Of a stretch of DNA of 64,000 nucleotides, positions 1-64,000 are shown piece after piece. The DNA is from Cytauxzoon felis (lineage: Eukaryota > Apicomplexa > Aconoidasida > Piroplasmida > Theileriidae). The notes under the pieces are model-generated. The model made no database searches and was not told where the DNA came from. It saw nothing but the letters and a program-made list of their open reading frames with translations. The stretch covers positions 32,236 to 96,235 of the forward strand of contig JAIQCW010000071.1 in NCBI GenBank assembly GCA_020283715.1, in the 5' to 3' direction. Position 1 is the stretch's first letter, and each line of letters starts with the position of its first letter. The position numbers were made by a program, and so were the translations under genes.

Positions 1-375
1 TGTAGATATCTAATGCTCAACCGTACGTCCAATCCCACTCTTCTTCCACTTCACCTCTCTTCCACTCGCCGTGGAGGCCTTCTCTATTTACCTCCCCTCG
101 GATTCCCGTAGATCATCCTCGGTATTTGTCTACCCGGAAGAACGTAAATATGTCAACCCCTAAGAACAGGAATTCTACCCCGAGGAACAAAATGTGTCCA
201 CCCTTAAGAACAAGACCTCAAGTGGAATACCCGTAGCTGATCTCAGGGAAGCGGAGGGGGAAGTAAATAGAGAAGCTGTCTGCAAGACGGGGAGAGGTGG
301 AGGCGAGTGGAAGAAGAGTTGGATTGGACCTCGGTGAAGAGCTGTCTGCAAGAAAACGATAGGTGGAAAAGATAG
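1..375. repeat. Palindromic modular repeat cluster, truncated at window edge
   Basis: Contains the inverted arms around GGTCCAATCC, the Cys/Gly-type module CCACTCGCCGTGG, a variant of the CTCGGATTCCCGTAGATC module and the TCTACCCGGAAGAACG module, then the same modules in reverse order. No gene is visible in these bases. The stretch precedes the 3' end of the small gene on the minus strand. Confidence 0.85.
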
Positions 376-446
376 TGATTGTATCTCAGGCATATGACCA
401 TAGATTGTATATGATGTAAAATGAAGTTAAGGAAATTAGATGAACA

Positions 447-846
447 TTAGGTGTTTATTTCTTTTTTCGATCGTTCTACGCTTTTATTTGTCTCTTTAGT
501 ATCGTTATTTTCGATGTTTGAAGATTTTTTTGTTGGCATTTTATCGTCTGTATTTTTTCGTTTTCTCTTTTTTGGTGTTTTGTAGTCGAATTCGTCTATG
601 ACGTTGCGATTTTTGTATTGCACAGGTTCTCTATCGTGATACTTTGAGAGATGATTATCTCTTGATATTTATATACATGAATTTATTAACATACAATATT
701 ACATACCTATTTACATTATTATTATTATTTCTATTGATGATAGTATGAGGATTATCCCATTTTCTATGTCTAATTAGATCTTTGGATAAGAAATCTTGTT
801 CTGATTTCGGTAGTTCAGGATCTGTAACGGGTACGAATTTTGGCAT
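447..846 (-). CDS. Small basic protein of unknown function, 2 exons
   Basis: Two exons, 707-846 and 447-660 (reverse strand), joined across a 46-bp GTATGT...AG intron. Phase closes exactly and gives about 117 residues. The protein starts MPKFVPVTDPELPKSEQDF, has a short Asn run next to the exon junction, and ends in a Lys/Arg-rich tail with KKRKRK, which looks like a nuclear or nucleolar localisation signal. I do not recognise the family. It is divergent from the next gene, with about 107 bp between start codons, so the two may share a promoter. Expression as a nuclear RNA-associated protein would be a guess only. Confidence 0.6.
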
Positions 847-953
847 TTTTTAATATTCTGATTGAATATATCGTGCATAATATTAAAATGGAGTATGTAT
901 ATATAGTATTGATGAATTAATGAATAAATATTAAAGAAATGTATGGATAATTA

Positions 954-3275
954 ATGGATGAATTGAATAATACTAAATTATTTAAGGTTTTATATGGTCC
1001 ATTGAATCGTGTTTGTTATGTGTCATTACATACTAAACCAAACAAGTCATTTGTACTATATGATGAATTATATAATCAGATTAGACGTATAGATCTTAAT
1101 AATATAAAATGTTTTCAACGAAGGACTGTACAAGCTGATGAACATAAAAAGACAAAATATGTATGTATTATAGTACTAGTATTGTATATACATTTACACA
1201 TTTATAAAATATCTTTAGATTCTGGAATTATTTTGGTCAAATGAATCAGGAACTGCTTTATCATTTTCATTTTTAACATTTGATGAATGTGATTCATTGT
1301 GTAAATCCATTGAATTAACATTTGGTGTTCAAGTCTATAATTATGGCACATTAAATTTGGCATTCCGTAATAATTTGTTCAAGGATAATGAATTGGAGAA
1401 TAAGAATAGGATAAAAACTGATAATCCAAATAGAGAATATGAATTGTATAAAGATTTTAATACTCGTGATGAATTTTATAACACTGTATGTTTGATAATT
1501 AATTAGGATAAAATTTATTTATGGACTTATAGAGTATATAAATAGGATGTCTATATGCTAATAATAGATGTTCTATCATATTTTTATAGCGTTATGTTTC
1601 ATTTTTAAACTCAAGTGTCTCTAATCTATAAATTTCTTTTAGAATGACGCAGAATCGTCTATTAATTACCCAGATGCTGAATACTCAACTAAATATCCAA
1701 TAATTATAGAGGGAACATTGGAAGAGGGTACATATTTATCATATCGTAGTATAAAAAGTATAAATTCACCATCATTTACTGTATATAAGACTGAATGGTA
1801 TTTATCATGCAGTAAATGGACCCAAGACCAATTTAGAACAATATTTACCTCCAAAGATGATACATTTTACCTTAAAGAATTTATGGTACCGTATTTCTTC
1901 TATCAAAATAAATTTATCTTTTACTATTAGATTGGTCATTACGTTATGTTAAAAGTCTATAAAGCTATCAAGACACATAATAATAGACACTACATTTATA
2001 CAACAGCCATTAAAGGACCAGTTATACCCGGCAATTTTTTAGCACGAGATATGCTACTAAACTCCGTAAAAGTTTGTCTACAACCAATAACTATCTTATA
2101 CATAGGATCTCGTTACACATAATGCACAAATCACACGCGAAGATCTAAAGAAATTACAAACTGATACATCACATCCACCCGAGGTCCAATCCACGACTCT
2201 ACCTAAGGTTAATCCTGCTGTCAGCACTCCACCTGAGGATACAACCACCGTTGGTCTTGCAGACAGCTCTCCACCTGAGGTCCAATCAACCTTGTCTTCC
2301 ACTCGGCGTGGAGCCTCTTCCAATTCACTCCCTGTAAACGGTAATGCCACTCCCGGAGATCGTGGCGATGATCAACCCCTAAGAACAGGAAATCTACCCG
2401 AAGGAACAGAGAATAACAACCCGGAAGAACAAAGTTCAATTGTAGTAGATCTAACCTCAAGTGGAAGTGGACTACCCGTAGCTGATCTCGGGGAAGCGGA
2501 GGGGGAAGTAAATAAGGAAGCTGACGGCAGGACGACCTCAGGTGGAACGGCGAGTAGAAGAGGCGAGGATAGTGATGTAACCTCAAGTGGACTACCCGCA
2601 GCTGATCTCAGGGAAGCGGAGGGAGAGGTAAATAAGGAAGCTGTCTGCAGGACAACCTCAGGTGGAAAGGAGAATAATACTGGACCTCAGGTGAAACTTA
2701 ACAATGACATTAATGATAGACTTGTTGATAGTGTTAAAAATAAACAAGGTGTTAAAAGTTCCTCACCTGTACAGAAAATGGACAATTTTCAATCGGTTGA
2801 CGTTATAGTTACATTTAAGGTATGATTTAGGTTATAATATACACATGGATTGTATAGGAGTTGTTAATTGCTGATATACATTTAGTATGGTCACGTATTC
2901 AAGTTAAAAAGAAAGATGATCAATTTGATGATAAAGAACCCATTATATCTGATCAATTAGATAATCGTCTATTCTTAAAAATCAAAAGGTAAGAACAAGT
3001 TGATTTTTTATATAATACTTTCATTTAGTAGTTCAACTGATGAATTCTATTATATCACATTATATCTACAATCAACATTCCAAAGAAATGTAATTTATCA
3101 TTCAATAATTTTTAATAAACATAGAAGACATTATTTTGTATGTTTAAAATTTCCAACCCTTAATAATCTATAGTCTATGGACCGTTGTGAACGTGATTTA
3201 CAACAAGGATACTATAATGGTATCAAATCAGCTTATGTTAAAATATGTAAAACAGCATTTCAAAATAATACTTAA
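954..3275 (+). CDS. Unknown 635-aa protein with repeat-encoded insert; possible lipid-binding domains
   Basis: Eight exons fit: 954-1160, 1219-1485, 1643-1885, 1931-2065, 2106-2819, 2858-2988, 3029-3137 and 3174-3275. Their lengths sum to a multiple of three. The first ~150 residues look like a PH/GRAM-type beta fold. Exons 3-4 (with GTYLSYRS and GHYVMLKVYKAIK, then VIPGNF) faintly recall the VASt domain of sterol-transfer proteins; this is an inference with low confidence. Exon 5 carries about 178 residues encoded by the dispersed palindromic repeat (bases 2166-2700), including two copies of the ADLREAEGEVNKEA-type peptide, in frame with the rest. The C-terminal exons resume non-repeat sequence. 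It is followed 29 bp later by prefoldin subunit 2 on the same strand. Confidence 0.6.
2164..2700. repeat. Palindromic modular repeat inside coding exon
   Basis: Three arm units, the SSTRRGA module, the CGTTTACGG variant of module D, the ACCCGGAAGAAC module and two copies of the GATCTCAGGGAAGCGGAGG module. All of it is open in the frame of the host exon 5, adding about 178 residues to the protein. Confidence 0.85.
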
Positions 3276-3304: not shown

Positions 3305-4081
3305 ATGTCAGAAATAGAAACTAAACATGCTACTCTTAAACGTCTTGAAAAAGAACGATTAAATATGTTAGGTCAATTAGAAAATCTATCACAAGATGCA
3401 GCAGAACATAGGTATATTTATTCTATATACATTAATTTATTATTAAATTTCAGACTAGTATTACAGACACTATCAAAAATTCCAGATGATAGAAGATGTT
3501 ATCGCATTGTCGGAGGCGTAGCCGTTGAACGAACAGTATCCGAAGTAAAACCAGCATTAGAAACACATGCAACAAATGTAAATTTATAATTAATTATTAT
3601 TAAAAATCATAATCAATACCTTCACCTCTTCCACTCGCTGTTCCACCTGAGGTTACAACCTTGTCTTCCTCTTGCAGAGAGCCTCTTCTATTTAGTTCCC
3701 CTCCGCTTCCCCGAGATCAGCTGCGGGTAGTCCACACGAGGTCTGTTCCTCTGAGTAGAATTCCTGTTCTTAGGGGTTGACATTTACATTCTTCCGGGTA
3801 GACAAATACCGAGGATGATCCACGGGAATCCGAGGGGGAAATAAATAGAAGAAGCCACCACGGCGAGTGGAAAAGATGGACCTCAAGTGGAAGCTGTCCG
3901 CAAGACGAAGACAAGGTTGTAACCTCAGGTGGAACAGCGAGTGGAAGAGGTGAAAGTATTGATTATGTTTAAATTTCTAATTTCATTATAGATTGATGAA
4001 TTGAAGAAAAAATTGAATGAGCAGTTAAATATATTAACGGATGAGATCGCAAAGTTAAAATCAACGATTAAGGATGAATGA
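3305..4081 (+). CDS. PFDN2: Prefoldin subunit 2
   Basis: A beta-type prefoldin subunit, part of the cytosolic hexameric chaperone that hands actin and tubulin to CCT. Three exons, 3305-3411, 3454-3577 and 3992-4081, give 106 residues, the usual size. The N-terminal coiled coil runs through LKRLEKERLNMLGQLENLSQ. The family signature follows as DDRRCYRIVGGVAVERTVSEV, and the C-terminal coiled coil is IDELKKKLNEQLNILTDEI. The second intron (3578-3991) is swollen to 414 bp by a palindromic repeat cluster. If that intron were read through, the protein would stop at once after NVNL, losing the second coiled coil, so correct splicing is needed. Confidence 0.9.
3602..3972. repeat. Long inverted repeat in prefoldin intron 2
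   Basis: The left arm (about 3605-3672) and the right arm (about 3905-3968) are near-perfect reverse complements over some 55-60 bp, through CCTCTTCCACTCGCTGTTCC and CACCTGAGGTTACAACC. The pairing continues outward into AT-rich flanks (AATCAATAC against GTATTGATT). Inside lie the module C variant and CCGGGTAGACAAATACCGAG. The RNA would fold into a long hairpin that brings the splice sites together. Confidence 0.85.
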
Positions 4082-9046: not shown

Positions 9047-11755
9047 TTATAATTTGAGTAGTGGGAATGTCATGACATCTTTGATATTTTTGGAGTTGGT
9101 GAGTACCATGACTAATCGATCGATACCGATACCTAATCCACCAATGGGTGGCATACCATAAGCAATTGAGTTTAGAAAATCTTTATCTTGATTATGTAAT
9201 TGTTTTTTAAATCTTTTAATAATTTCAATAGGATTACATTCTTCACTACAACCATTTGCGATTTCAATACCATTGATATAACTTTCAAATCTCATTGTTA
9301 ATCTGGGTTCATCTTTACATTTTAATGCTAATGGTGATATATCTAATGGTAAATGTGTAACATGTATAGGTTCTGTTAATAAATGTTCAATTTTATTTTT
9401 AAAAATTTCTTGTACAATTATACCCCAATCATTAGAATTTATAGAATTATAATTTGTAAATTTAATTAATTCATTTGTATTCATTTCAAGAACATTAATA
9501 CCTATATAATCTTTAATTAATTCTACCATTGATTTACGCTTCCATATAATTTTATTATTATTACAATATTTTAATTCTAATTTTAACATCAAATATGATA
9601 ATAATTCCTCAAAAATATTAATCATATCATCCATATTCATCATTTTACTATACATTTCAATCATAGTAAACTCAGGTGAATGACAAAAACTCACACCTTC
9701 ATTACGAAAACAACGACCAATCTCATAAATCTATAAAAATATATAACAAATAATACGTAAATTATATGTTGTCTACTCCACTCGAGGTCCAATCCAACTC
9801 TTCTTTCCACTCGCCTCCACTTTTCCTTGTCTTGCAGACAGCTCTTCCATTTACTTCCCCTTCCAGCTCCCATAGATCGCTTCCAGGTTCCACTTGAGGT
9901 TATTTACTAATCTCGACGAGATAAGGATAAAGTGACGGAATCTATGTTTGTGAGGATATCTCAAGGAATATAAATTGAAATGAAGTGAGGTTTAGTAAAT
10001 TAGATACAATCATCAAATTCCTCTTCAATGAAGTATTGATATTTATATTTCATCCAATATTCATGGAGTAATCTTCATGAGTTTCCCCAGAAATTATGAA
10101 ATTCCATCAAATTTTGGATGTAAAAGTGATGTTAGTGATTACAGTGATTGGACCTCAAGTGGACCACCCGCAGCTGATCTCAGGGAAGCGAAGGGGGAAA
10201 TAAATAGAGAAGGCCGTCTGCAAGACAAGGATGGACATCAAGTGGAGAGCTGTCTGCAAGAGAACGCAAGGTTGTAACCTCAGGTTGAAGAGCTGACGGT
10301 AGGACGATAATAGTTGGATTGGACCTAAGGTGATGAAGATGTGTATGTAACCTCGGATGGAGTATATATATCATTAGTGATATTTTATAATATATATTTG
10401 GAATGTATTATTCTTACCTTATCATGTAATCCAGAGATGATTAATCTTTTGAGGAATAATTCGGGTGCGATTCTTAGATATACATTATTATTTAGATGTT
10501 TTGATGATGTAATGAATGGTTGTGCTATAGCACCGGATGGTATATTTTGTAATATGGGTGTTTCAACTTCAATAAAATTTTTATCATTTAAAAATTGTCT
10601 AATATATTTAATAATATTACATCTTAATAATAATATATTTTTAGTATTTTTATTAATTAAAATATCTAAATGTCTTAATCTATAACGTGTTTCTATATCT
10701 TTAAGACCATGAAATAAATCAGGTAATGGTAATAAACATTTACTTAATATATAAATTTCATTTACTATTAATGTTAAACAACCTATATTTGTTTTTTTAA
10801 TATTACCTTTAATACCAATAATATCACCTATATCTAATAATTTCTCAATTTCTATAGGATTCAATTCTATACCATTAAATATAATTTTATTATTACGCCT
10901 TAACATAATCTGTAATTTTATATTCTTATCATCTATTATATCTATAAATAATCCATTATTCCTTATACTCATTATACGACCTTTACATTTCCATATAGGT
11001 TCCATAACCTCTTCACCATTCATTAAATCTTCATTTTCTGATATAATTACATTAAAATCATCCAAAAATTTCTCCTCCTTTAATTCAGGATATGGATTTA
11101 TCTTATATTTATTCTCAAGTATATTCAATTTTAATAAACGACTATTCAATTGAGTCACCAATGGATCATTAGCACAATACATCAATATATTCTCTAAACC
11201 ATGAATAATTGAATCATTACCAACCGATAATTCTATATCTGAAGTCGTATAGTTATCTATTTCACTCGAAGTCCCACCTAATGTCTTTCCACTCGCCGTT
11301 CCACCTGAGGTCGTCCTGCAGACAGCTCTTCTAATTACTTCCCCTTCCAGCTCCCGTAGATCGCTTTCAGGTTTTCCACCTGAGGTTACATCCAACACAT
11401 CCTTAGAACCATCTTCCATCATTCCCATGATGGATGATCCATCACTAGCCTTCTCACCGCCACGATCTCCGGGAGTGGCATTAGCGTTTACGGGGGGTGA
11501 ATTAGTAGAGCTCTCTGCAAGAGGAAGAGAGTTGGATTGGACTTCAGGTGGATCAGCAGAACAAGGATGGACTGCGATCTTCGAAGTAGAGTCATTGATG
11601 TATGAGTGATTGTTTGATGTACCTGAATACAGTTTATGATTTACAGGATTGGATGATATAAATGTGATATTTCTACATTTTAGAGCATGAATATCAATTA
11701 ACGCATAGGATATCAATACGCATAACAGCGATAGACATTTGATGTAGTACAACAT
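9047..11755 (-). CDS. Organellar (probably apicoplast) class II lysyl-tRNA synthetase
   Basis: Charges tRNA-Lys for organelle translation. Two exons, 10418-11755 and 9047-9730 (reverse), close in frame to 673 residues. Residues 1-25 form a hydrophobic signal peptide (CLSLLCVLISYALIDI), as expected for import to the apicoplast. Then comes a ~105-residue insert encoded by the palindromic repeat, then an OB-fold anticodon-binding domain (WKCKGRIMSIRNNGLFIDI). The class II catalytic domain has a motif 1 region around NFIEVETPILQ, motif 2 IYEIGRCFRNEG and motif 3 GGLGIGIDRLVM. The only intron, 9731-10417, is 687 bp and filled with repeat including one module G copy. The cytosolic LysRS must be encoded elsewhere. 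Confidence 0.85.
9778..10365. repeat. Repeat cluster with module G in LysRS intron
   Basis: Flanked by arms (CCACTCGAGGTCCAATCC on the left, GGATTGGACCTAAGGTGATG on the right). The central part 9903-10150 is one of six copies of the AT-richer module G. Lies wholly within the intron on the minus-strand gene. Confidence 0.85.
11262..11580. repeat. Palindromic repeat coding in LysRS exon 1
   Basis: Carries module F (CATCATTCCCATGATGG), module D with the CGTTTACGGGG variant and the module C variant AGCTCCCGTAGATCGC. Read on the gene strand it gives the peptides NANATPGDRG, SSIMGMMEDGSKDVLDV and ESDLRELEGEV, placed between the signal peptide and the anticodon-binding domain, that is in the transit-peptide region. 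Confidence 0.85.
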
Positions 11756-11983
11756 CAGATTCTGAAGACTTGTACAGTAACATTTGAAAATGTGATAAAG
11801 CCATTGAATATAATCTCCTTTATCATTATTGTAATTTAGCTGTTGTTAAAATTTATATTTATAACTGCATTTAATATACTCATTGACTATGGATCTGCTT
11901 GTGGGTACTGTTATGATCTATTGCCTTATTGTTTGATTTCATTCTTTATTCGCGGGGATTCTTTATAATTTTTTATAATTAAA

Positions 11984-12665: not shown

Positions 12666-15600
12666 ATGACTGTACAATTTAAGCCTGAGGTCCTCAATGA
12701 CAGTCGTGAATTGTCATTGCTGGAATATTTCTTACAATTATCCTTATTTACTACGGATTTACACATTACTAGAGCTTGGAAACTGTGTACAAAGGATGTT
12801 GAAGAAGCATTCATAACCAATTCTGTAAAGGTACTTTCCACTCACACATTTTCACACATTTTCAGGATTATGAAGGATCGATCGTATCATTTTGGATGGA
12901 CTTGAATAAGATGGAACCACCTCAATCATTTGATGAGTGTGTCAATAAAGGATTAATTAATGCTGATCTATCAAAGCAACTCTATGAAACAGGTACCATC
13001 GCTCCACCTCTAGGATTCGAAGGTAATCCTATAGGATCCTATAAAATGCTACTTTTCAAAGTCGCTCTAGGACGCATACTCGTACATAACGATTCAGGTT
13101 TGTCCACAAACAAACATAGTGATCTCTTCACCCGAAATATTATACACCTCTTCATTCCACTCGCCGTGGTGCCTCTTCTATTTACCTCCCCTTCCAGCTC
13201 CCGTAGATCGCTTCCAGGTGTTTTACTTCCACTTGATGTTACATCTACTAGGATAGCCTGGATCTTTATCACCAAGTGCCTCTTTAATTGTCTCGAGTTT
13301 ATCTTTAAGATCTTTACTAATTGTACCTGGAATTATTTCATCATAACCATTAGTCTCTTGTGTCCATTTATTGGCACCGTTTTCCAACGTACGTTTATAC
13401 CATTTATTCTTCTGACTATTACCTTTTCCGCCATCTTGAGATAAACATATTAACAGAGGTTTTTCTAGATCAGGTTTATTATTTTTCAGTGGAAAATATA
13501 CAAATACACCTCCATTATTTTGAAATGTAAAACCATTGAGTGTATCTTGATCAATTCCATTCGTCACCTGACCATGTATAGTTATGCGATTAATATTGAA
13601 GGTAGTGACACCAGCAACATAATGTTTAAAACCTTTATATGTAGCAGTACTAGGTTGACTTTCCTCAACTGGCGTAACAGTAATCGTATTATTTGTGTCA
13701 TTAGGATTTGCTGTATATGGAGTACTTGTATTATTCCTTTCAAGTTTAACCTCAAATTTCCCTTTAACCTCACCAAGTTTCTCTCCAAGTGTTTGAAGAC
13801 CATTACTAATCCCGTAGCCGATCTCAGGGAAGCGGAGGGAAGAGTAAATAAAAGAGCTGACGGCAGGACGACCTCAGGTGGAACACTTAGTGGAACATTA
13901 GATATAACTTGTGTGTAGAATGTCATTTAATATTTAGATAAATTTTTGGAGTGTGAGATTCCGAGTTCATATAATTCATTGGAGTTGAATATAAATACTG
14001 AGCCTAAATATTACAATTCATTATATCGTATAAATGATTCTAAACAAGTATTACCATATGCAATAGTTGAATTGGAATTTGTACCAATACATATAGATGT
14101 ACCAGAGCCTATATGTGAAATGTGTGAAATGGCACCTGCAAAATGGTATTGTCATTCAGATAGGTAATTTAATTACATAAATAAATATATATATTTAAAT
14201 ATAGAGCACATTTTTGTGATGATTGCGATATTAAACAACACTCTTCAACGCCAATTTTCTCTAGACATAAAAGAATATCATTCACCAAATCTCCAAACCA
14301 ATTCGGACTCTGTGAAGAACATATATCAGAAACCATCGATATGGTCTGCATAAAAGTTTGTTTACATGCACTAAAGAATATGTTAACTCCACCTGAGATC
14401 AAATCCAACTCTTTTCCACTAGGCGTGGAGCCTCTTCTATTTACCTATCTCTAAAGAGTAGAGCCACTCCCGGAGATCGTGGCAGTGATGAAGGCAGTGA
14501 TGGAAGTAGAGGTAATGATTGGACCTCAAGTGGAACCCGTAGCTGATCTCAGGGAAGCGAAGGGGGAACTAAATAGAAGAGCTGACGGCAGGACTAACCT
14601 CGGGTGGAGAGCTCTCTGCAAGAGGAAAAGAGTTGGATTTGACCTCCAGTGGATACATACCGGTGATATGATGATTCTCGGTATATATTTGATAAAAATT
14701 CCTGTGATGTTTATTTTTATAGTGTTATACTGCTTTATGCAGTCATTGTATATTGTATGGTAGTCATTCTGATCCTAGTTTCTTTGATCATCCATTAATG
14801 TCTACATTGGATGCTTATGAGTTTTCGGTTAAAAAGAATTCTTCTAGTGATGAATTATTATCACAAAGGACTGCTCTTATAACTAGTCGTATTAAAAATA
14901 GACATAATTTATTGTCACAAATTTATGCAAATTCAATATCATTACAAACAAAGATAGATAATGCCAGCAAATTACTTATTGAACAACTCAATATCATGAA
15001 AGATAAAAAATTAAGATACCTACAAGCAATCACACGAGAAGTCAATACACAACTACTCATTATAAACTGGATTGAAGTACGTTTTAACACACTCATAACA
15101 TATCCAACCTTCACCACAATCTCCACTTTCCCTTTACTTCGTACTCATCTTCCACTACCCCTTCCCTTCCACTCGCCGTGGTGCCTCTTCTATTTACTTC
15201 CCCCTCCGCTTCCCTGAGATCGCTTCCAGGTATTACAGTTGAGGTCTCCACCTGAGGTCCAATCACTGTAATCACTACATTCAATTTTACCTCCAAATTT
15301 TGAAGGAAAATCTGAATTTCTTGGGAAACTACTGATAATATCTCAATGACTATTGAATGTATTTCTGATGTCAATACTTCATTGAAGAGCTCATTGATGA
15401 TACTATTGAGTTATATCATCCTTACTTCATTTCAATTTATATTCATTGAGATATTCTGACAAACATGGATTCCATCACTTTAGTCATATCTCGTCGAGAT
15501 TAGTAATTAACCTCTGGTGGAAAACCCGTAGCTGATCTCAGGGAAGCGGAGGGGGAGGTAAATAGAGGAGCTGTCTGCAGGACCACCACGGCTAGTGGAA

Positions 15601-17081
15601 GAAGAGTAGGATTGGACATCGAGTGTTATGTTTGATGAATTAATTATAATATTACAGTCATTTTTGAATCATTTATTGTTATCGTTAGAGCCTGCTGAGT
15701 TTGTTCAATGTAAGAAGCGTTATGATTTATTGATATGTAAGATGTTTGATGGTGATTTTAAGATATCATCTAGTTTATCTGATATGCCTATTTGGATGTC
15801 TAAAAAATTATTATTGACTGGTGATGTAGATGTTCGTTGTTTATCATTGGAACAATTGAGATTGACCGATTATAATATTGTTAATAATGATAAGGATGAG
15901 ATACCTAAAGAATGGACACCATTAAATTTATATGATAATTGGAATGATGAAATTGGACATTATTCAGATTCTATAGATGATGATAATAAAAAAACTAATA
16001 GTACCAATGTTAATATAGATACTAATTCTTATGAGATTGATTTAAATATTATTAATAAACTTTGGCATTTACTTTCAGAGATAAAAATGGCTACTTTATT
16101 ACATATAATTAAAGTATATTTATATATATATAGAGATGATAATAATAATATTTTTAGATTATTAAAGTACCAGATCGCAATCAATTTATAAAATGTTGTT
16201 GTGTATTAGCTAATAAATATGAACAATTACATAATTTTTTTAAATTTGCTATAGAGGTAATGTTTTTATATATTTATTATAAATATTATAGTATGAATTA
16301 GATATTACAAAAAATTATGGATATTGTATATTAATGAGAAGTACTAGTATATTATCTGATATAATTATATATATATTTATAAATGAATCTAGTGCATGTC
16401 AAGAAACTATTGATTGGTTAAAATTATTATGTTCTAATATATTAAATTATTTATCTTGTGAATATGATATTAAATCAACATCTAAAGATTGTATTATACA
16501 AATTATTAATAAATTAATAAATACTATTGATATTATTAATATACCATCATCATTACGTTTTATTTTATATCTATTAAATGATACATTACCAAATTATAAT
16601 TGTAATCTATGTATAGATGCATTAATTGGTGTTATATTCTCAAATTTTTGTAGAAATATTAAATTTTATTATAATATTAATCTAGAAAATACTAAACAAT
16701 CTGCTTATTTTAAAGATTTTATTAATGAAATCTCATTCTTATTCGGTAGAATTGGTATATTATGTTGGGAATTTAATGATTCTAATTCATTCGAATCTAA
16801 TCTTATTAATCAGGTATCTATATCCTTCTATTATTCATATTAATTTCATTCAGTTGCAAGATTGGATGAATAAATTACTCAACAAACCTAGAATTATATC
16901 TAAATTACATCTAAAAAATGATACAAATATAAATAAATCTGCAATTTTTATACTCGAAATCATCAAAAATATCAAACATGAATTAAATTCTGGAACATTA
17001 AATATTACCACACAAGAATCTAATCTACTCACAAATAAACTCAACCTATTACCACTATTCCAATTAACCAATCAAATATAA
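12666..17081 (+). CDS. B-box zinc-finger protein with PARP-like segment and coiled coil
   Basis: Nine exons fit in phase: 12666-12830, 12866-13097, 13938-14163, 14205-14355, 14723-15076, 15658-16113, 16158-16256, 16292-16813 and 16854-17081, for 810 residues. After an N-terminal helical part, YKMLLFKVALGRILVHND and SKQVLPYAIVELEF resemble the C-terminal half of an ADP-ribosyltransferase (PARP) catalytic fold. Two B-box-like zinc fingers follow: CEMCEMAPAKWYC...HFCDDCDIKQH and LCEEH...CIKCYTALCSHC. A coiled coil (ELLSQRTALITSRIKNRHNLL) and a 400-residue helical C-terminus, of unknown fold, complete it. Three introns (13098-13937, 14356-14722, 15077-15657) are swollen by repeats. The function is unknown; a regulator or adaptor is likely. 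The joining of the first two exons to the B-box rests on splice phase and PARP-like continuity. Confidence 0.65.
13143..13250. repeat. Repeat piece at one end of intronic gene fragment
   Basis: Modules CCACTCGCCGTGGTGCCTC, CCCCTTCCAGCTCCCGTAG and TTCCACTTGATGTTACATC. It abuts the C-terminal end of the reverse-strand gene fragment. Confidence 0.75.
13246..13812 (-). pseudogene. Fragment of a lineage-specific gene family, antisense inside an intron
   Basis: An open stretch of about 188 codons with no start codon and no stop of its own, bounded on both sides by palindromic repeats and lying within the 840-bp first large intron of the B-box gene. It encodes KFEVKLERNN, TITVTPVEES, YKGFKHYVAGV, INRITIHGQV, GGVFVYFPL, KPLLICLSQDG and NKWYKRTLENG. 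The same blocks in the same order occur at 30904-31540, so the two are paralogues. The family is not one I can name. It may belong to secreted or surface proteins of piroplasms. Confidence 0.65.
13798..13905. repeat. Repeat piece at the other end of intronic gene fragment
   Basis: CCCGTAGCCGATCTCAGGG with AGGGAAGAGTAAATAAAAG, CTGACGGCAGGACGACC and CTCAGGTGGAAC. Together with 13143-13250 it brackets the captured gene fragment. Confidence 0.8.
14388..14665. repeat. Repeat cluster in intron of B-box gene
   Basis: Starts CTCCACCTGAGATCAAATCC and ends TTGGATTTGACCTCCAGTGG, which are inverted arms. Module D and module C lie between. Wholly within intron 14356-14722. Confidence 0.8.
15135..15625. 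repeat. Repeat cluster with module G in intron of B-box gene
   Basis: CCACTCGCCGTGGTGCCTC at the left and CCACCACGGCTAGTGG at the right, with module G at about 15262-15508. Wholly within intron 15077-15657. Confidence 0.85.
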
Positions 17082-46943: not shown

Positions 46944-49900
46944 TTATAATTCTTCAATGTTCGGTAATTTATTTTTATGACGTTCAAGTTCATTTCTAAT
47001 TTCATTCTTCATTTTAAGCGAGTATTCTCTATTGATGTCATTGAAATTATCATCCTTTGTTTCGAGTATACATGATAAGAATGTCGCTATTCGTAATAAT
47101 ACTTGTTCATCTCTTGTGTGATTTAAGAGTTTAAAAATGTTTGTAAAGTTTGGTACAAAAACGAAATATTGTGCTATACGTAAATCTCTTGCAAGTAACG
47201 CCAATAACCTATAAATGAAGGATGATGTTATGATTGATACGAGGTCCAATCCACATCCTCTTCCACCTGAGGTCCAATCATTACCTTCACCTCTTCCACT
47301 AGGTGTGGTGCCTTCTCTATTTAGTTTCCCCTTCGCTTCCCTGAGATCAGCTGCGGGTAGTCCACTCGATGTCATGTACTCATCAACACCTTTTACACCA
47401 GGTACATAATGGGGTTTATTATCCCCATAACCCCCATTACCCCCATTTTTTCCACCTGATGTCCAATCCATTTCTTTACCAACATCATAATCTCTACTCT
47501 ATTATAGTACAACCTCTCCTTAGTCTTGCAGACAGCCTCCTCTATTTACCTCCCCCTCCGCTTCCCTGAGATCAGCTACGGGTTCCACTCGAGGTCCAGT
47601 ACTAGACTTCATTCCACTTGAGGTTACATCCAACACATCCTTAGAACCATCTTCCATCATTCCCATGATGGATGATCCATCACTACCTTCACCACGATCT
47701 CCGGGAGTGGCAATACTCTTTAGAGATAGGTAATTAAAAGAGGCTCCACGCCTAGTGGAAGAAGTGTTGGATTGGACTTCAGGTGGAGGAGAGTTGGGAT
47801 TGGACCTCAGATGTAGATATATTTCAGTAGACAAAACATACCCTGTGCTGGCGATTAGTGCTCTATGATTATTATAATCGACTATGAATGTGAAGATGAT
47901 ATTGAAATCATTGATATTGATTTGTATTAATTGTAGATTATTGTTAGATTGATTAATAGATTTTAATATTTTTTGATGAATAAAATCATGTACTATATTA
48001 AAACCAGCTGTTAAATTACACCAACCTTCTAATGCAGCAATATTTAATAGAATATTATCAGAAAATAATAAATTACGGAATAGATCCCAACCATTTAATA
48101 AAAATATACGTTTTCTAACATCATCATTAATAGATGATAAATTAATTAAACTTAATGCAGCTTCATATTGATATAATTCATAATTTGATTGTAATAAATA
48201 TAATAATGGTTTAATAGAATCTAAAATATCATTATAATTTAAATTTAATGGATTAGTAATTAAACATAAATATGCTATAGATTGATTAATATATAAAGAA
48301 GATTTATAATTTTCATTATTATTAATTAATATATTTATAAATATACGTAATACACCTAAATTTAATAATATATTACGATTATCTTTAATACTATTTAAAT
48401 AATATAATATTTCTATTATATTTTTATATATTATATCATTTATATCATTATTTTTTTTAATATTTTTTTTATTAATATTTTACATATTATATTATCTGAT
48501 AATATCATTAATTTCCTTCTTGATTTTATAGAATCTTCTTCATTACCCTCATAATATATACCATTCTCTATTTTCTCACCTATACATGGAAATTTCTCTC
48601 TTAATTTCTCCAATGATTCTAATTGATCCATATCAATATTATCATTACCGTCATATATAAATTTTAATCTATCCTTATTACCCTTTAATAAATTTAATAC
48701 TATCTGCGTAAACATTAATATATACTTATTCGATATTACAACTGAAGTTACATCCTTATCCTTTCTACTATACCTTGTCTTCGTCCTGCCGTCAGCTTCC
48801 ACCCGAGGTACATTCCTGCCGTCAGCTCTTCCTTTTAGTTCCCCCTCAAGCTCCCGTAGATCGCTCTCGGGTTCTCCACTCGAGGTTACATCCTTAACTC
48901 TACTTCCATCAATACCGATATCCTTGTTTTCAGGTGAATTATGGGGATATTTGTCGGGTAGATTGGTACCATGGGGTTTATTATCTTTGTGAGGTTTTTT
49001 ATCCCCATTATTCCCCATAACCCCATGTTTTCCACTTGAGGTTACATCCTTAACTTCATCTCCAACCTCTCCTTCGTCTTGCAGACTGCCCCTTCTATTT
49101 ATCTCCCCCTTCGCTTCCCCGAGATCAGCTACGGGTTTATCGCCACGATCTCTGGGAGTGGTTTTACTCTTTAGAGATAGGTAATTGGAAGAGGCCCCAC
49201 GCCTAGTGGAAGAAGAGTTGGATTGTACCTCGAGTGGATTGGATTGGACCTCGGTGGAGTTCCAATATTTATCACTATCAATGATAGGTTTAATAATCAA
49301 TATAAGGAATGAATAATCCATTAATTTATAATTATAATGTAGAGATAAAAATGTTATAGATTCTAATATAATTTCTAAAGGATAACAATTTTTTATATTG
49401 AATTTCAATGCATTTATAGAAAGTTTAAATATATCAAACTCATCAATCAATCTCAATTTTATCTCATCTGAATGTAATGTCAACTTTGATAAAATCAATA
49501 ACTTATACTCCAATAATCGAATATCATCATAATTTCTTCTACTAACTGTTCCAACTCTCTCCGTCTTGCAGACAGCTTCTCCACTTGAGGTTACAATCCT
49601 GCCGTCAGCTCTTCTATTTACCTCACCCTTCACTTCCCTGAGATCAGCTACGGGTTCCACCTGAGGTCCAGTACTACTCTCCTTTCCACTCGCCGTGGTG
49701 GCCTCTCTATTTACCTCCCCTTCCAGCTCCCGTAGATCGCTTCCAGGAATTTTGCCACGATCTCCGGGAGTGGCATTACTCTTTAGAGATAGGTAATTAG
49801 AAGAGCTGACGGCAGGATAGACCTCGAGTGGAGAGGGCTCCACGCCGAGTGGAACAGACGAAGGTAGTGATTGGATCTCAGTTGGATTGGATTGGACCTC

Positions 49901-51598
49901 GAGTGGAATATCATTAATTTGATTGATATATTTGATAAAATTGACATCTTTTTTAATGGTTTCGATAAAATTTTCATCATCATTGATGATATCTTGTCTG
50001 AATTCGGCATAATCTAGTATAGAGATTATAATGAGGTTAGAGTATTGACGAATTTTCTTCATATCAGCATCTGCTGAGTAATAATTACAAAAAGAGTGTA
50101 ATAGTGGTATAATTAATCCATTAGTTATTAAATACTCTTTAAATAATTTCTGATTTGATATATATAATACTCTCATGACATAATACCAAGGTAATTGGAA
50201 AATTATATTAAATTTATCATCATATATTAAAAATTTCCTTAAATGTAATGTTAAAATATTAATAAGACATTCATCATTTATATCATAAAGATTGAATTTA
50301 ATTCTAAAAATTGCTATTAAACATGTATCAATTTGATTATAAATTGAAGAGTTATCCAATTCATATAATAAAGATAATTTTTCTATTAGTTTAGATAATA
50401 AAATAGAAAATTTCGTATTATCTTCTATAATAATATCATCTGAATTAGAGAAGAATAATAAAATACAATCTAAAATTTGTATAAGGATTTTATCATCATC
50501 TTTAGATAATATTATATATAGTGTTTCTAAACTTTGTATATTCTTTATAATAGAAGAACATTTTGATATATCTACCAGTATAGATTGAATGATGGTTGTA
50601 CTACCTTCAGTAGATGGAGTGATGATACCCTCAGATTGAAGAGTATTGGTACTACCTTCAGATTGAGTGATGTCAGTACTACCTTCTTCAGTACCACCTT
50701 CAGTAGACTGAGTAACTTCAATACCACCTTCTTCGGTACTACCTTCAGTGGATTGAGATATTTCATATAATGATTTAACATAATCACAAGGGCATTTTAT
50801 AGAGGATATAAATTGTTTATTAATTTCTATAGTATATTTAGATTTTCTTCTAGATAATATTAGATATATACAATGCCATGTATAATAAAGTGTATTATCT
50901 ATACATGAATTTATAATTTTATTATATGCAATATCAATAAGTTTATATAAAATTTTATCTTTAATAATATTATTTAATGATATTAATTTAAATTTTTTTA
51001 AATTGTCATTAATATTATTACCATTTAAAATCTCATCAAGAATGACATTACAATCTATACATGTATTTATATCATTTTGTTTAACAAGTTTTTTAATAGA
51101 ATTTAAAAGTATTATATGTGGTTGATGATCATTATTATTTGATATAATTTGTTGACATCTATTAATATATATTAATGATGTATTATAATCATTCTTAAGA
51201 TAATAACAATAAGCTATATAATATGTAGCTTTATAATTATTATCATCAATTAATAATGTAGCTTCACATGATAATTGTGTTTCATTAATCTTACCAAGAT
51301 TATAATAACAAAGTGCTATATTACATAATAATGTAGATAATAATTTCTTTATATCATCATATTTAATAAAATAAATTATAGATGAAATTAATTTTTTAAT
51401 CTCATTAATATTTATATTTTTATCTGATATATTTAATATATCAATTATTATATTTATATAACCATCAAGAGCATTCTGGAAATTACCATTTTTATATAAT
51501 TTATTAATATTATTTTTTTCATTTAATAATTTAGGATATTCTAATAATATATTATCATCATTTATATAACAAATACTATCAGATGTTATTGATGTCAT
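46944..51598 (-). CDS. UNC-45/UCS-type myosin chaperone
   Basis: Chaperone that folds myosin heads; needed for gliding motors in apicomplexans. Three exons, 48484-51598, 47842-48382 and 46944-47208 (reverse), close in frame to 1306 residues. The N-terminus has TPR repeats (LYKNGNFQNALDGYINIIID, IALCYYNLGKINETQLSCEA, YYIAYCYYLKNDYNTSLIYI). The UCS armadillo domain is at the C-terminus: YQYEAALSLINLSSINDDVR, ILLNIAALEGWCNLTAGFN and ALIASTG-LLALLARDLRIAQ. Between them, a tandem Ser/Thr/Glu/Gly tract (50580-50760) and two in-frame palindromic repeats enlarge the middle. The join between exons 1 and 2 is tentative: two A8 runs there could instead hide a one-base shift. The last intron (47209-47841) is filled with repeats. 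Confidence 0.85.
47235..47820. repeat. Two repeat blocks in last UNC-45 intron
   Basis: 47235-47475 ends in a CCCC-rich module J piece; 47515-47820 holds modules C, F and D with CACGCCTAGTGG. The gap between them is about 40 bp. Confidence 0.85.
48745..49260. repeat. Repeat coding in UNC-45 (first block)
   Basis: Arms, two CTGCCGTCAGC pieces, modules C and D, and a module J copy at 48940-49030. The gene-strand peptides are NYLSLKSKTTPRDRG, PVADLGEAKGEINRRG and ESDLRELEGELKGRADGR. Confidence 0.88.
49555..49920. repeat. Repeat coding in UNC-45 (second block)
   Basis: Holds both versions of module C (ADLREVKGEVNRRADGR and SDLRELEGEVNREATTASG on the gene strand) and one module D (NYLSLKSNATPGDRG). 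Conserved TPR/central sequence resumes on each side. Confidence 0.88.
50580..50760. repeat. Tandem coding repeat in UNC-45
   Basis: Degenerate units of TCAGTAGA-CCTTC type encode repeated SQSTEG, TEEGS and TEEGG peptides. It is unrelated to the palindromic families. Confidence 0.8.
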
Positions 51599-53326: not shown

Positions 53327-54174
53327 TTAAATATTATATACAATTATAAATATTATACTACAATTCCTTCCTCTCTCTCTATATATATATCATTTATATA
53401 TAATCAAACCTTGTTATATATATATATATATACTATAACAATTAACAACACACAAATACATCTACATTAATATATATATATATATAATTTATAATATTAA
53501 TTTAATTTAATTTTAAATATATAAACTTATACTAGTGTCTATAATAAAATTTACAATTTATAACAAAACTACATTTTTATTACCCAAAATATAAACATAA
53601 TAATTAATTGATTATTTCAATTAATACTCTATAAATTTATACATATTTTATCTTGCACTCTGCATTAAGTTGCTGATCGTTAATGGGGTTAGATGTGTAT
53701 ATAATCGTTAAAATTATCCCATTATCTATCACCATACATAATAATAATACCTATATCAACTTGATTAATTATATAATACACAAGTATTCTATATAACATA
53801 ATGAAATTCATATAATTTATACTCGATTAACTATACAATTTTTATAACATTTTCATTCTGTCTATATCAAATTTCATCAAATTTATTATATATCATATAT
53901 ACTTCCCTACTTTATACTATAATATATTAATATATTTTGTCATACATACTATATCCAATACCAAACATCAACAATTTATTACAATTTATAAATACTTTAA
54001 ATCTGTACCAATATATAACTTGTTAACCATTGTCATAACATCCTTTCATTAATAATATATTATACCCTTATATATAGGGCCGACCATATCAATGATATTA
54101 CAATATGTCTAATGATAATTATAGAATGAAATTGATCATTATAATACTTTTACACATCTATCAAAGTATAATTC
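53327..54174. other. Long AT-rich intergenic region
   Basis: About 850 bp with TA dinucleotide runs (53390-53490). No gene, no palindromic repeat and no structured RNA that I can recognise. Confidence 0.6.
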
Positions 54175-54870
54175 CAACTGAAGTCTAATCCACCTCCTTT
54201 TCCACTCGGCGTGGAGCCTTCTCTATTTACTTCCCCCTCCGCTTCCCTGAGATCAGCTGCGGGTTCTCCACTTGAGGTTATATCTACTACACCTTCTTCA
54301 CCGCCACGATCTCCGGGAGTGGCTCTACTCTTTAGAGATAGGTAATTAGAAGAGCTGACGGCAGGACCAAGAGAGTTGGATTGGACCTCAGGTGGAAGAA
54401 GACTTGAGTTTTGGTTTCGGGTGGATATTATTTATATATTATAAGTTCTTCATTTGGATAATTGTAACTTAGGGGACCGAGGAAAATTCTTCAATATAAT
54501 TGTCTACCCGGAAGAACGAATATCCACCTAGATACAATCACCATACCTTGTCTTGCAGACAGCTTTCCACCTGAGGTCGTCCTGCCGTCAGCTTCTCTAT
54601 TTACTTCCCCCTTCGCTTCCCTGAGATCAGCTACGGGTTCCACTTGAGGTTATATCCAATACATCCTTAGCACCATCTTCCATCATTCCCATGATGGATG
54701 ATCCATCACAACCTTCATCACTACCTTCTCACCGCCACGATCTCCGGGAGTGGCTATACTCTTTAGAGATAGGTAATTAGAAGAGGCCTCCACGGCGAGT
54801 GGAAGATAAGGCTGTAACCTCAGGTGGAACGGCGAGTGGAAGAAGAGTTGGATTGAACTTCATGTGTAAT
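54175..54870. repeat. Two repeat blocks downstream of and into PWP2
   Basis: 54175-54425 is a complete unit (CCACTCGGCGTGGAGCC to TTGGACCTCAGGTGGAAG). 54490-54870 begins TGTCTACCCGGAAGAACG and includes modules C, F and D. The second block supplies the last codons and the stop of PWP2. Confidence 0.88.
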
Positions 54871-57800
54871 ATTATTAGTGTTTGAATTGATATTATATCT
54901 GTTTATAAGATATTTGATGGTGTAAGAATTAGATTTGATTAATCCCATGATATTAGCTTTAGTATATCTTAATTGTCGAAGTAATAATAGCATTATATTT
55001 CTAAGATTAAGATTTTTATAATTGATGATATTAAGATTGATATGATTAGAATAATTAATAAAATTATTAATATGTAATGTAAAAATAGTATCAAGCCATA
55101 AAAGATGTGTATATAAATGTATAGTACCATAATTAGAATCAATATTTAATATATTTCTAATAAAATTTAATAATATACATATAAAATCTATATCAATAAT
55201 ATAAATAATATTATTAATATAATGTATAGGTATATTTTCATATATATTTAATAATATATTAAAATCATTTAATGCTATAGATAATATAAATGATTTTAAA
55301 TATTGTTTATTATTTAATAATAATAATATATTTTTACGATTAACATTTTTTGTTAATAATTGTATTTGAAATTTATTAATAGATTTTATAATTTCATTTT
55401 TATATATTGGTGTTTTTATATATAATTCTAATGTATATATATATATACCATGTGATGTAGCTATACCAAAATAATAATTATCTAATGAACATGATATACA
55501 CCAAATATTAAATCTATCTAATTTATTTTTTAATTCTATTATTTGTTGTCCTGGTAATTTATTATATAATTGTATCCTTTTTATATTATTTAATTCTTCT
55601 ATATCATCATCTGATATATCATATTCTTCTATTGTATAACCATAATTTGTAATATATTTTGAATTTAATTCACGTCTTATACCACTATATGATCTATTAT
55701 TTGTTAATATATATATATGTACTAATATATATGATTCAGTACTATATATACATACATGTGGTGAATTACGTGAACCACATATTAAATATAATCCACTAAA
55801 TGTATATACTATCGTATTAAAATGCTGATTCTTATCTATATTCGATTGTATATCACCATCTATTATCCTTGAATGAATAGATGAATACTTCTCACTATAA
55901 TGTCTACCACTCTGTATATCCCTTATACCATCTATAGTACCAATTTGCTATATTATATATATAAATATCAAATATATCACCCTCCACTCGAGGTCCATCC
56001 GACGACCGTTCCACCCGAGGTCCAATCCAACTCTCTTCGTCCTGCCGTCAGCTCTCCACCTGAGGTCGTCTTGCAGACAGCTCTTCTATTTACTTCCCCC
56101 TCAAACTCCCGTAGATCGTTCTCGGGTATAAATTCTAATCTCGGCGAGTTATGACTAAAGTGACGATATTCACTCAAGTAAGGATAACTCAATGAATATA
56201 AATTGGAATGAAGTGAGGTTTAGTAAATCCAATAGCATCATCAAATTCCTTTTGAATGAAGTATTGAAATTAGAAATTCATTCAATATTCATTGAGATAT
56301 CTTCATGAGTTTCCCCAGAAATTCAGAATTTCCTCCAAATTTTGGAGGTAAAATGAAGTTGTGGAATGAAGTATAGTCATTGGACCTCAAGTGGAGACCT
56401 CAAGTAGAATACCCGTAGCTGATCTCAGGGAAGCGAAGGGGGAACTAAATAGAGAAGGCCACCACGGCGAGTGGAATGATGTGTCGGATTGTAACCTCAG
56501 GTGGAAGTGGAATACCTGGAAGCGATCTACGGGAGCTGGAAGGGGAGATAAATAGAGAAGGCCTCCACGGCGAGTGGCAACGGCAGGAATGTAACCTCAG
56601 GTAGAGCAGCGAGTGGAATGGAGAGTTGTATTGGACTTCAGGTGTAGAATCTTCAATTAAACAAACCGTGCAATTATTAAGATCCCAGAAGATTATATAT
56701 CCTGAGAGTATGGCGGCGGCAAGTATGGAGTTACCGCGTGGATCGAATGCGATGGCTACTACACTTGAGGTATTTAGTAATGGTTCATTAACACCGCCTT
56801 TATCTCTTCTACCATAGATATTCCAGACCTATATTTTTTTAGTGGGTAAAATTTTCATTTATATAAACTTACATTAATATATTTATCCCATGAGGAGGAT
56901 ACTAAAATATTTAAATTCGGATGGAATGCAACACCGGAAATAGGTGATGTATGTCCACGTAATTCATCTAATAATTTACCAGTTTGTAGATCCCACACAT
57001 ATATAGAATTATTTTCACCTCTAGATCCTGCTGCTATAATACTACCGGATAAATCACATGCTATAGTAACAAATTGTACACCTGATATTGTAAATGTTCT
57101 AAAATTACGATATCTTAATAAATCAAATGCTCTTACAGTACCATCTAATGATGCTGTAATAATAGCATTAGCCTATATGAATGTAAGATGTATGAATGTA
57201 TCATCAATACCTGAGATGTAAATACTATATCTTCTACAGATGCAATATGATCTTCAAATGTAATAAAACATAATCCTGTATTACTATCCCATAATTTTAT
57301 TTTACCATCAAATCCACCAGTAGCAATAATATATCTACTACCAAAGCCTAATTTATTACCACTATAATTTTGATCTATATCCATATTCAATTCTTTATTA
57401 ACATTACTACCAATATTTATAGTAGAAGAGCCACTAGTTGAAAATGCTATAGAACGTACACCATTACAATGACCTAATTGTTTCATAACATAAGTTTCAC
57501 TTTTCCATTCCCATACAATCAACTATAAGTAAATTATACAAGAGAAATATTAAACATACAGAACCAGTCTCTGAACAAGCTAATGCTAACCAATCCCCAT
57601 CATTTGTTATATCTATTGAATCTATAATAGGCATATCATTACCCATTCTTAATGTATATAATGATTCCAATTCAGGGACTCTATATAGACCAAATGTACC
57701 ACCAGTAAATCCAACAACAAAGAGATTAGTATTTTTATTATAGGATACACATGCAACCTAAAGAATAAATTTATTTTTATCTTGAATTTTTATATACTAA

Positions 57801-59163: not shown

Positions 59164-59176
59164 GCCACCTTAGCAT

Positions 59177-59234
<58 letters not shown>
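59164..59234 (+). tRNA. tRNA-Thr (anticodon UGU)
   Basis: A complete cloverleaf. The acceptor stem GCCACCT pairs with AGGTGGC. The D arm holds AGCATAGTGGTAGTGCA. The anticodon stem TCGGT/ACCGA encloses the loop CTTGTAA with anticodon TGT. The T arm is CGGGGGTTCGATCCCCC. A TTTT run right after serves as Pol III terminator. No intron. A box and B box are in the normal places. Confidence 0.93.
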
Positions 59235-59238
<4 letters not shown>

Positions 59239-61813: not shown

Positions 61814-61921
61814 AATTTAATTCCCCATTATAAGATTCTTAATAATATTTATATTTATATTAATTTAAATTATAATGTGAATATTTATAATGGAATTTTA
61901 ATAACTTTTAAAGTTATTAAC

Positions 61922-63824
61922 ATGTACAACAATGTCTTTGTTATAATTTATACATTATTTTTATCGACTTTAAATTATATTAATCTTAATTTAATTAATG
62001 GATTTATTTATTATAATAATACTACAAGATTTAAATTATATAGATTCCGTAAATTCAATGTCCCTGATCATCTTCTAGACCCTGATTTCACTACTACACC
62101 CTTTAACTTTAAATCACCTAAATATCCACCGTAAGTCAATATCATTTTAATCGTGATATAATACAGTTATCCATATTATGACACGCCGAAAAATTTATTT
62201 TTTGATATATCCTCTCTTGGAAAGTCTAAACATGATAGTGATGGTAGACCATCAACTGAATCATCTATACAAGATGAATTTATGAAGAATGCTGAAGTTA
62301 AAAGGTAATTTAACTCTGATATCATAGTATATCATTTAGAAATGGAGGTAAAGTTCAAAGAATCGATAAGAATCCAATTTATGGTACGTTAGACAACTGT
62401 AGCATTGTTCAAGGTTTAGAATTAAACGAGTGTTTCTCAACAAATTACGAGGATTACATACATTCTTATGATACAAATTTACATGCTGATGTCATTAAGG
62501 TCTGGTTTTTATTATGTTAATGCTCATTATTTAGACAGATTTGGCGGAATATGATACATTAAGACCAGGTTTAGGGCCTTGGCCCACATTTGATGAGTTG
62601 AAGGAAAAAAATATTGACTTGGATACATCAATAACGTTATTTGTTGATCCCAATGATATGTTAGAGAGACATTTACAACATAAACCATTGAATCGCATAG
62701 ATATTAAGGTTTGATGAAGGATATTAATTAATCTACCCTCTATTAGACCATTGCAGAGGCTAGGACGGAACAAGCTAGATGGTTAGATAGATCAAGGACT
62801 CAAGGTAAGCATTCCATTTATAATGTAAAATAAATGTTATAGAGTGGTCTTTAACGTATGATGAATTTGTAAATTTACCTTTGGATATGAGAGAAGCTTA
62901 TTATGCAAATAGATATCCAATCAGGTAATGACTTGAAGGTACTTATTTAAACTTCTATAGTGATGAAGATGAACGTTTTTTAATGATATTAAATTATAGG
63001 AGATCACTAGGTAAAGCTCCTGGGGTTAGTATTGATGAATTATTTTATATGTTATAGAATTTAAAAAATCCACTAGAATTCCGAAATATGGAATCTAGTT
63101 ATACTTATACATCAAAGGATAGTCCAGTATTAGGAGATTTAAAGAATGTTAGTATTATAAATTGAACCTCAAATATAATTTATAGTGGGATGATCCATTA
63201 GAATGTCCATGGAGATTAAGAGCAAATGAAGTCATCAGGTATTTTTTGACATCATCATTAATTAATCATTAGAGATTGTGTTTCATATGGATGGCCTCTT
63301 AAAAAATTACGTTTCCATACCGGCATGGATGTTTATGATATCACATGGCTACCAGGCGTTATAAAAATACTAGTTGAACGTACACGTGATGAAGGTGATG
63401 AAATTGATAAGGTTGAATTGAATCTTATGCTATTAAAATTAGGTTTGATAATAATTTTTTTATAAAAATGTTTTTTTTATTTAGAAAAAAGATTACAACA
63501 ACTCGATAAAGAAGAATGTACAGATATTTATAATAATTATTCCATCATATTAGCTACAAAACCAACCAATAGCACCATTTTATATTGTAGACGTGATTGG
63601 AATGAAAATATTGGGAAACATGTAACCATTACATTTAATAATGAAAGACGTTCACAGATTAATGGGATATTACTAGGATCAGATAATCCCTTTGGATTAC
63701 ATTTAAATATCAAAGGTATCAAGAAGACAATACCACTCTTTTTCATCCATGAGGTATGATATTTATATCCATTTATAGATGAATGAATATACAGATTGAA
63801 TTGACACAAAATGAGAGAATGTGA
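61922..63824 (+). CDS. RimP-like (DUF150) ribosome maturation factor, signal-bearing, probably apicoplast
   Basis: At least eleven short exons. A hydrophobic signal (VFVIIYTLFLSTLNYINLNL) opens the protein, followed by a long hydrophilic stretch with blocks such as GLGPWPTFDELKEKNIDL and TYDEFVNLPLDMREAYYANR. The C-terminal part matches RimP layout: a ferredoxin-like domain (IKILVERTRDEGDEIDKVEL, then EKRLQQLDKEECTDIYNNYS and ILATKP in place of the usual E-V-S-S-P) and an SH3-like barrel (HVTITFNNERRSQINGILLG, IPLFFIHEIELTQNERM). RimP assists 30S assembly. Function in the apicoplast is inferred from the signal peptide. The start is taken at the ATG before the signal. Confidence 0.6.
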
Positions 63825-63914
63825 TGTTACCACTTGGATTATTACAATTAAGTATAAGGATTTGAATATGATACAAATGTTATTCAGTTATGATGTATGC
63901 GATTTATATTCATA

Positions 63915-64000
63915 TATTCACCTGAGGTTACAATCCTGCCGTCAGCCCTTCTGTTTACTTCCCCCTCGGATTCCCGTAGATCACTTTCGGGTTCCACCTT
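63915..64000. repeat. Repeat cluster cut by window end
   Basis: CACCTGAGGTTACAATCCTGCC, the CTCGGATTCCCGTAGATC variant and GGGTTCCACCTT, about 90 bp after the RimP-like stop. Confidence 0.8.

Follow-up and report, generated by a model that had tools for sequence, protein, structure and literature searches.

A dispersed, palindromic and modular repeat family in the nuclear genome of Cytauxzoon felis with in-frame copies in protein genes

Rickettsia palindromic elements (RPE) are dispersed, non-autonomous palindromes which occur between genes and also in frame inside protein genes, where they add a peptide to the product. Short elements with inverted arms and no coding capacity, in which several centres can be carried by the same arms, are known as MITEs or foldback elements, while the GC clusters and double-hairpin elements of fungal mitochondria are GC-rich hairpin modules of an AT-rich genome, some of them lying inside genes. 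The introner-type introns of Amoebophrya are said to be repeats that invade the genes of an alveolate. PARCELs have been described as tandem 25-residue coding repeats with dyad symmetry in open reading frames, found also in some eukaryotic microbes (PMC2996958). In the relevant passages of a survey of 64 apicomplexan genomes no transposable elements were reported for C. felis, and MITE candidates had been removed as likely false positives (PMC9141347).

The elements of C. felis described here share with RPE the palindromic, dispersed and non-autonomous character, the in-frame location in protein genes, the extra peptide and the presence between genes, but they are nuclear and eukaryotic, modular with alternative hairpins, found in introns as well, and include a long class with a core of its own. 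The family seems to work like RPE; the likeness lies in the way of working and no kinship of sequence is claimed. Inverted arms, shortness, the lack of coding capacity and several centres per arm type are common to these elements and MITEs, from which they differ in the absence of a detectable target-site duplication, in their variable ends, in being near linkage equilibrium and in the many in-frame exonic copies. Compared with the GC clusters of fungal mitochondria, the same kind of GC-rich hairpin module in an AT-rich genome is seen, here nuclear and larger. Coding sequence with dyad symmetry is shared with PARCELs, but the C. felis elements are dispersed instead of being arranged as tandem repeats, and are mostly non-coding, most clusters having no long open frame. 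Both introners and these elements invade alveolate genes; introns are removed, whereas the copies in the cf76 gene (see below) lie within an ORF reported from cDNA.

No nuclear RPE-like family was found in the open-licence literature searched, which agrees with the original prediction, where no such description was known from piroplasms, and the repeat-related passages of three C. felis papers (PMC6310948, PMC10058880, PMC9860807) make no mention of the family. We regard it as possible, with a confidence a little below even, that this is a transposase-free nuclear system in which hairpin modules undergo copying and recombination freely enough for thousands of copies to form one recombining population near linkage equilibrium, with in-frame peptides in several hundred genes including a vaccine candidate, and that it is the first nuclear counterpart of RPE. 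If true, selfish palindromes would be shown to spread in frame across proteomes outside bacteria and organelles as well, and this in a phylum for which an absence of DNA transposons has been reported (PMC9141347); insertions should then differ between isolates.

The window, i.e. the whole stretch of 64,000 nt that was analysed, contained by self-comparison 44 clusters of one palindromic modular family, which occupy 10,246 of the 64,000 bases (16.0%). More than 30 clusters built from common short modules had been predicted, and all seven modules named at that time gave 15 to 36 matches each (at most two mismatches, both strands). The clusters were GC-richer than their surroundings (0.48 vs 0.29), as had been stated. 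The wider sample of 262 kb comprised the window and 20 loci (198 kb, four other contigs); since 138 kb came from a single contig, this sample is not random. Here eleven module definitions gave 15 to 307 matches each, while a first-order Markov control yielded 0 or 1 on each strand, and 228 clusters with at least two modules covered 37,379 bases (14.3%). The genome-wide module search that had been proposed was carried out on the 8.62-Mb assembly of 181 contigs (the C. felis genome has been reported as 9.1 Mb with a GC content of 31.8%, PMC3748084): the exact 18-mer arm CCACCTGAGGTCCAATCC occurred 436 times and its reversed-letter control not at all. A 65-residue consensus of the element open frame gave 4,649 first-look candidates, which are not equivalent to confirmed copies; the best 150 were scored and all of them matched. 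Copies were found in intergenic DNA, introns and exons, all three as predicted (Table 1). The family is a nuclear, dispersed, palindromic and non-autonomous repeat.

Table 1. Elements of the repeat family and their host frames in the window
Feature	Position	Strand	Remark
Sense in-frame cluster	2175..2694	+	In frame 2106-2822 (within the predicted gene 954-3275)
Element, probably intronic	3626..3938	.	Between two prefoldin subunit 2-like pieces
Long element with core	9773..10333	+	Between two lysyl-tRNA synthetase exons, i.e. intronic
Sense in-frame element	11287..11552	-	N-terminal leader of lysyl-tRNA synthetase, frame 10388-11845
Long element with core	15157..15625	-	
Sense in-frame element	18706..18993	-	Frame 18543-19298, sub-threshold M16 peptidase match
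Long element with core	20360..20808	+	
Short element, both arms, g modules on each side	22514..22757	+	DNA fold z = -7.7
Long element with core	27515..27956	-	
Long element with core	33533..34003	+	
Typical complete short element, t modules on each side	34833..35064	-	DNA fold z = -10.5
Two sense clusters	37245..37552	-	In frame 36959-37612
Antisense armless 186-bp fragment	38458..38643	+	In metacaspase exon, frame 37902-39548 (minus strand)
Two sense in-frame clusters	39906..40533	-	Frame 39506-40702, adjoining the metacaspase exon
Two clusters	47261..47788	-	Left one sense in frame 46947-47498; right one (47508-47788) holds a near-identical copy of the metacaspase fragment
Three sense in-frame clusters	48780..49906	-	One 1058-aa frame 48443-51616, TPR-containing protein
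Complete short element, unlike modules on each side (c, g)	54174..54395	-	DNA fold z = -2.3
Long element with core	56010..56606	+	

In sense order the short element consists of the arm CCACCTGAGGTCCAATCC, one of the exchangeable modules t, c and g, N or n, S, a centre of variable length, D, V, an inverted t, c or g and the inverted arm. Several of the modules are small hairpins, and S/D and N/V resemble, by eye, diverged inverted copies of each other. Among the clusters with at least three modules the arm was present at both ends in inverted order in 21, the commonest single class, while the outermost modules differed widely between elements, giving variable ends. The modules chosen on the left and on the right were independent of each other (alike in 20 of 62 elements, 20.8 expected), and a pairing of the alternative modules across the element was rejected on this count. 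The modules are often joined at CTCTTC/GAAGAG, as read by eye, a possible microhomology for exchange.

The original prediction knew a single element type; a second, longer class is also present, in which the same arms flank a conserved, AT-richer, non-coding core. Fifteen cores were found in the 262-kb sample, and the 14 that could be aligned (one cut by the end of its locus was omitted) had a mean column identity of 80% with few indels. A coding core was rejected, as only 1 of the 84 frames of the 14 copies was open throughout, and so was a structured one, with double changes in 2 of 28 predicted pairs. Genome-wide, no open frame longer than 140 aa was seen among the 150 core matches scored of 410 candidates. 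One core frame is nearly open in many copies (DISMNINWNEVRMIK..., e.g. 9938-10115 of the window), with 0-4 stops in the scored matches; this may be chance or the relic of a coding source.

As to the spread of the family, which had been left to inference before, we infer with about even confidence that non-autonomous nuclear palindromic elements are spread by templated repair, the exonic survivors being selected in frame. Whole copies or pieces would be written into breaks or stalled forks, presumably by ectopic conversion or by template switching on hairpins, and short-tract conversion would then keep reshuffling alleles among the copies. Paired changes in stems could be explained by hairpin-templated correction. 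In exons, selection would leave the in-frame, stop-free copies, which would add a hydrophilic, probably disordered peptide to leaders or linkers.

Variable sites were close to linkage equilibrium at distances of 8-30 bp: the mean r2 was 0.015 at 8-15 bp and 0.007 at 15-30 bp, with 0.011 expected by chance. Together with the independent assortment of left and right modules this is in line with the mosaic recombination that had been proposed. At shorter range the mean r2 was 0.16 (under 3 bp) and 0.13 (3-8 bp), and much of this came from the pairs V15-V16, which resembles a GAGAAG/GAAGAG shift, and N11-N18 (r2 1.0), whose two sites pair with each other in the N hairpin. Association between features was below P 0.05 in 1 of 36 pairs, two of which are uninformative by construction, the feature S8 being moreover nearly monomorphic. 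Against the repair explanation it has to be said that recurrent mutation at hot sites could also produce linkage equilibrium. When the 121 elements with a length of 150 bp or more were compared, a single pair shared at least 120 bp at 95% identity or more, namely the intact element at 47508-47788 and the armless fragment in the metacaspase exon, which agree ungapped in 180 of 186 bases; the fragment could, however, be a decayed full insertion.

The main rival, which we hold possible but on balance doubtful, is that the elements are MITEs or foldback elements derived from a terminal-inverted-repeat DNA transposon with a lost or unrecognisable transposase, the mosaics having arisen later through gene conversion. 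Two size classes that have their terminal inverted arms in common are a MITE-like trait, the first-look candidates amount to thousands, and single-stranded DNA of two of the three elements folded, all chosen for having both arms, showed strong foldback (z -10.5 and -7.7; third -2.3). While terminal inverted repeats are thus present, the 44 elements bounded by arms gave no sign of a target-site duplication (shared k-mer 3.09, shuffled sequences 3.05, P 0.41), and the variable ends, with their widely differing outermost modules, as well as the armless copy in the metacaspase exon do not fit this rival. The elements had been described as carrying no transposase, and genome searches for three families, DDE_3, MULE and Y1_Tnp, gave no match; a survey of Apicomplexa is reported to have detected no class II transposons (PMC9141347). 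A search for a Helitron Rep/helicase gave no match, and neither did its control.

Copying through RNA, primed at breaks by telomerase or by an undetected reverse transcriptase, seems quite unlikely to us. Telomerase is present and partial copies would fit truncated cDNA, but RVT_1 matches were confined to one frame, telomerase itself, so that no reverse transcriptase of the LINE/SINE kind was found beside it, and no poly-A or other one-sided end was seen in the elements read. The paralogous pairs L015/L021, L012/L015 and L028/window contained no clean empty site, therefore no insertion event was directly seen, which is a point against the repair explanation. In the paralogous stretches L015:2174-3810 and L021:4615-6233 an element occupies the same gap in opposite relative orientation, by independent insertion or by inversion between the arms. 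The exact pattern of the D module had no match in viral contigs or in GTDB genome contigs, from which the own genome was possibly left out.

Paired changes were seen in two hairpins. In N, two stem pairs covary, each being paired in 131 of 134 copies (81 and 95 expected), and the stem forms CTCT/AGAG (91), CCGT/ACGG (17) and CCCT/AGGG (14) account for nearly all copies, intermediates being very rare. In t, the closing pair covaries (136 of 158 paired, 97 expected); GTCT/AGAC was found 83 times and CTCT/AGAG 23 times, and the commonest broken forms only 5 and 4 times. Such covarying pairs are expected from hairpin-templated correction or from selection on the hairpins. Against the repair explanation, the stems of g, c and S are nearly invariant and the arm stem shows no covariation (149 paired, 156 expected). 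The covarying pairs would also suit elements with a regulatory or chromosome-structural function for the host, whose hairpins are kept by selection, and so would the low variation of most sites (a mean of 1.6-3.6% for those below 10%, a low figure favoured by the thresholds of the module match). Since exons, introns and intergenic DNA are occupied alike and the left and right modules are unlinked, we hold a host function very unlikely.

To collect exonic copies in the 262-kb sample, an open frame had to measure at least 200 aa and to remain open for at least 40 codons to the left and to the right of the cluster. In the 25 frames obtained there were 42 clusters, 39 in sense and 3 in antisense orientation (P 6e-9), and one reading frame dominated (D 23/25, S 27/28, N 18/21, V 30/35). 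Since these frames had been chosen for being open, openness itself is no evidence, and it is the orientation, the uniform frame and the gene context that count; most other frames of D and N, as read from their sequences, contain stops, and this is one source of the bias in orientation and frame. The distance between S and D was in phase in all 20 exonic elements and in 32 of 72 others, the latter only slightly above one third (P 0.03), thus the frame is kept mainly in exons. These results support the RPE-like behaviour proposed originally. Disorder-promoting residues made up 62% of the element residues and 36% of the host residues. Of the best 150 genome-wide matches to the element peptide, 74 lay in frames that run for at least 200 aa without a stop and 52 in such frames of at least 500 aa, up to 3,670 aa, shares which are biased upward as these are the best-scoring matches. 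Scaling from 25 frames in a non-random 262 kb would give, very roughly, 800 element-bearing frames in the genome.

The single sense frame in exons would also be expected if the family descended from protein-coding repeats or evolved mainly through them, and the alleles of the D module, for which the search pattern fixed some positions, differ partly by synonymous codons. Third positions, however, were not in excess in non-exonic copies (P 0.50), and exonic copies showed only a weak excess (0.093 against 0.070 and 0.077; P 0.15), so that, despite the hint from the D alleles, coding selection on the whole family is not supported. Considering also the near-random S-D phase outside exons, a coding origin appears very unlikely.

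Some protein genes that are otherwise conserved carry elements in frame. The original prediction had listed five host genes (SPP, LysRS, UNC-45, metacaspase and the gene 954-3275), and in-frame copies were found in all of them, though the one in the metacaspase exon (38458-38643) is antisense and armless, the neighbouring frame 39506-40702 containing two sense clusters. Two of the names are less secure: the 'UNC-45' frame (48443-51616) has weak TPR and armadillo-type matches only, with 0 of 7997 candidates reaching the threshold in a protein database, and 'SPP' corresponds to the sub-threshold M16 match, whose frame (18543-19298) gave no match at E 1 in the PDB. The pieces flanking the probably intronic element at 3626..3938 resemble, by eye, prefoldin subunit 2. 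The LysRS insert is in sense and in frame as described, but it belongs to the N-terminal leader and precedes the conserved core.

It had been pointed out that orthologues of distant species carrying the same inserts at the same sites would speak against recent insertion. In two cases compared, no such insert was seen: the LysRS of B. caballi has no counterpart of it, and in mammalian PARN the flanking stretches are about 20 residues apart where the PARN-like nuclease of locus L020 carries elements, although the four flanking matches include two weak ones, with i-E values of 1.2 and 0.03. The elements of this nuclease occupy residues about 238-329 in one open frame and 126-234 in the following one; both fall inside the CAF1 domain match, which covers residues 45-466 and 3-303, respectively. 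In a Yju2-like protein the element (residues 183-202) is inside the domain match of residues 15-217. Other element-bearing frames match the kinesin, CAF1B/HIR1, LCCL, gamma-tubulin complex, MFS and FAINT families, by frame and not by the position of the element. Pfam scanning of sixteen sample-locus frames left 5 without a family, plus L026.

One host gene is cf76, which encodes a published C. felis vaccine-candidate antigen (PMC3748084). Six distinct primers published for it (PMC3748084) match locus L031 exactly and once each, one of them having served to locate L031. The ORF from the ATG at L031:7 is 2172 bp long including the stop, equal to the published length, and by offset its position in the assembly (6540-8711 of G000:C114) is that reported as contig00195:6540-8711 (PMC6310948). 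It contains two sense in-frame elements, at about L031:540-822 and 1726-1977, and two of the published primers lie inside the first. According to the report the full ORF was amplified from cDNA, clones were sequenced and a single exon was found (PMC3748084); judged by this published account, both elements are therefore apparently retained in the mRNA. The possibility, raised with the original prediction, that exonic copies are spliced out or are assembly artefacts is thus spoken against for cf76 alone.

A 30-bp tandem repeat in the C-terminal region of cf76 was reported to be doubled in 10 of 11 samples (PMC3748084). The only near tandem repeat of such size in this region is a 33-bp unit in 2.0 copies, made of the c module and the arm; it is probably the published repeat, the two lengths differing by 3 bp, and in that case one array of element modules probably differs between isolates already. 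About 37% of the C-terminal fragment is element-derived. This fragment is reported to react strongly with survivor serum, and the N-terminal and central fragments more weakly (PMC3748084). Since the other element sits in the latter two, a strong effect of a shared epitope is argued against. Still, the reading of the serology is affected, because the C-terminal fragment comes in part from an element whose peptide has similar counterparts in many other open frames. In a later trial the immunogenicity of cf76 was reported to be below expectation (PMC10058880).

Beside the family, some other features were noted. The FAINT domain gave 145 matches genome-wide (150 of 224 candidates scored), which fits a piroplasm of the Theileria/Cytauxzoon type. 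A tRNA gene at 59164-59235 (+) was the sole Rfam match above the gathering score in the window. A cysteine-rich frame of 727 aa at 4090-6273 (-) has no Pfam match and belongs to a family of which the genome contains 39 matching stretches; it has some likeness to the VESA-type proteins of Babesia. A third repeat of about 130-290 bp, which has none of the modules, is present in the window at 45420-45675, 30711-30800 and 6268-6397 and also in loci L009, L021, L027 and L028, and one of its copies adjoins the start of the cysteine-rich frame.
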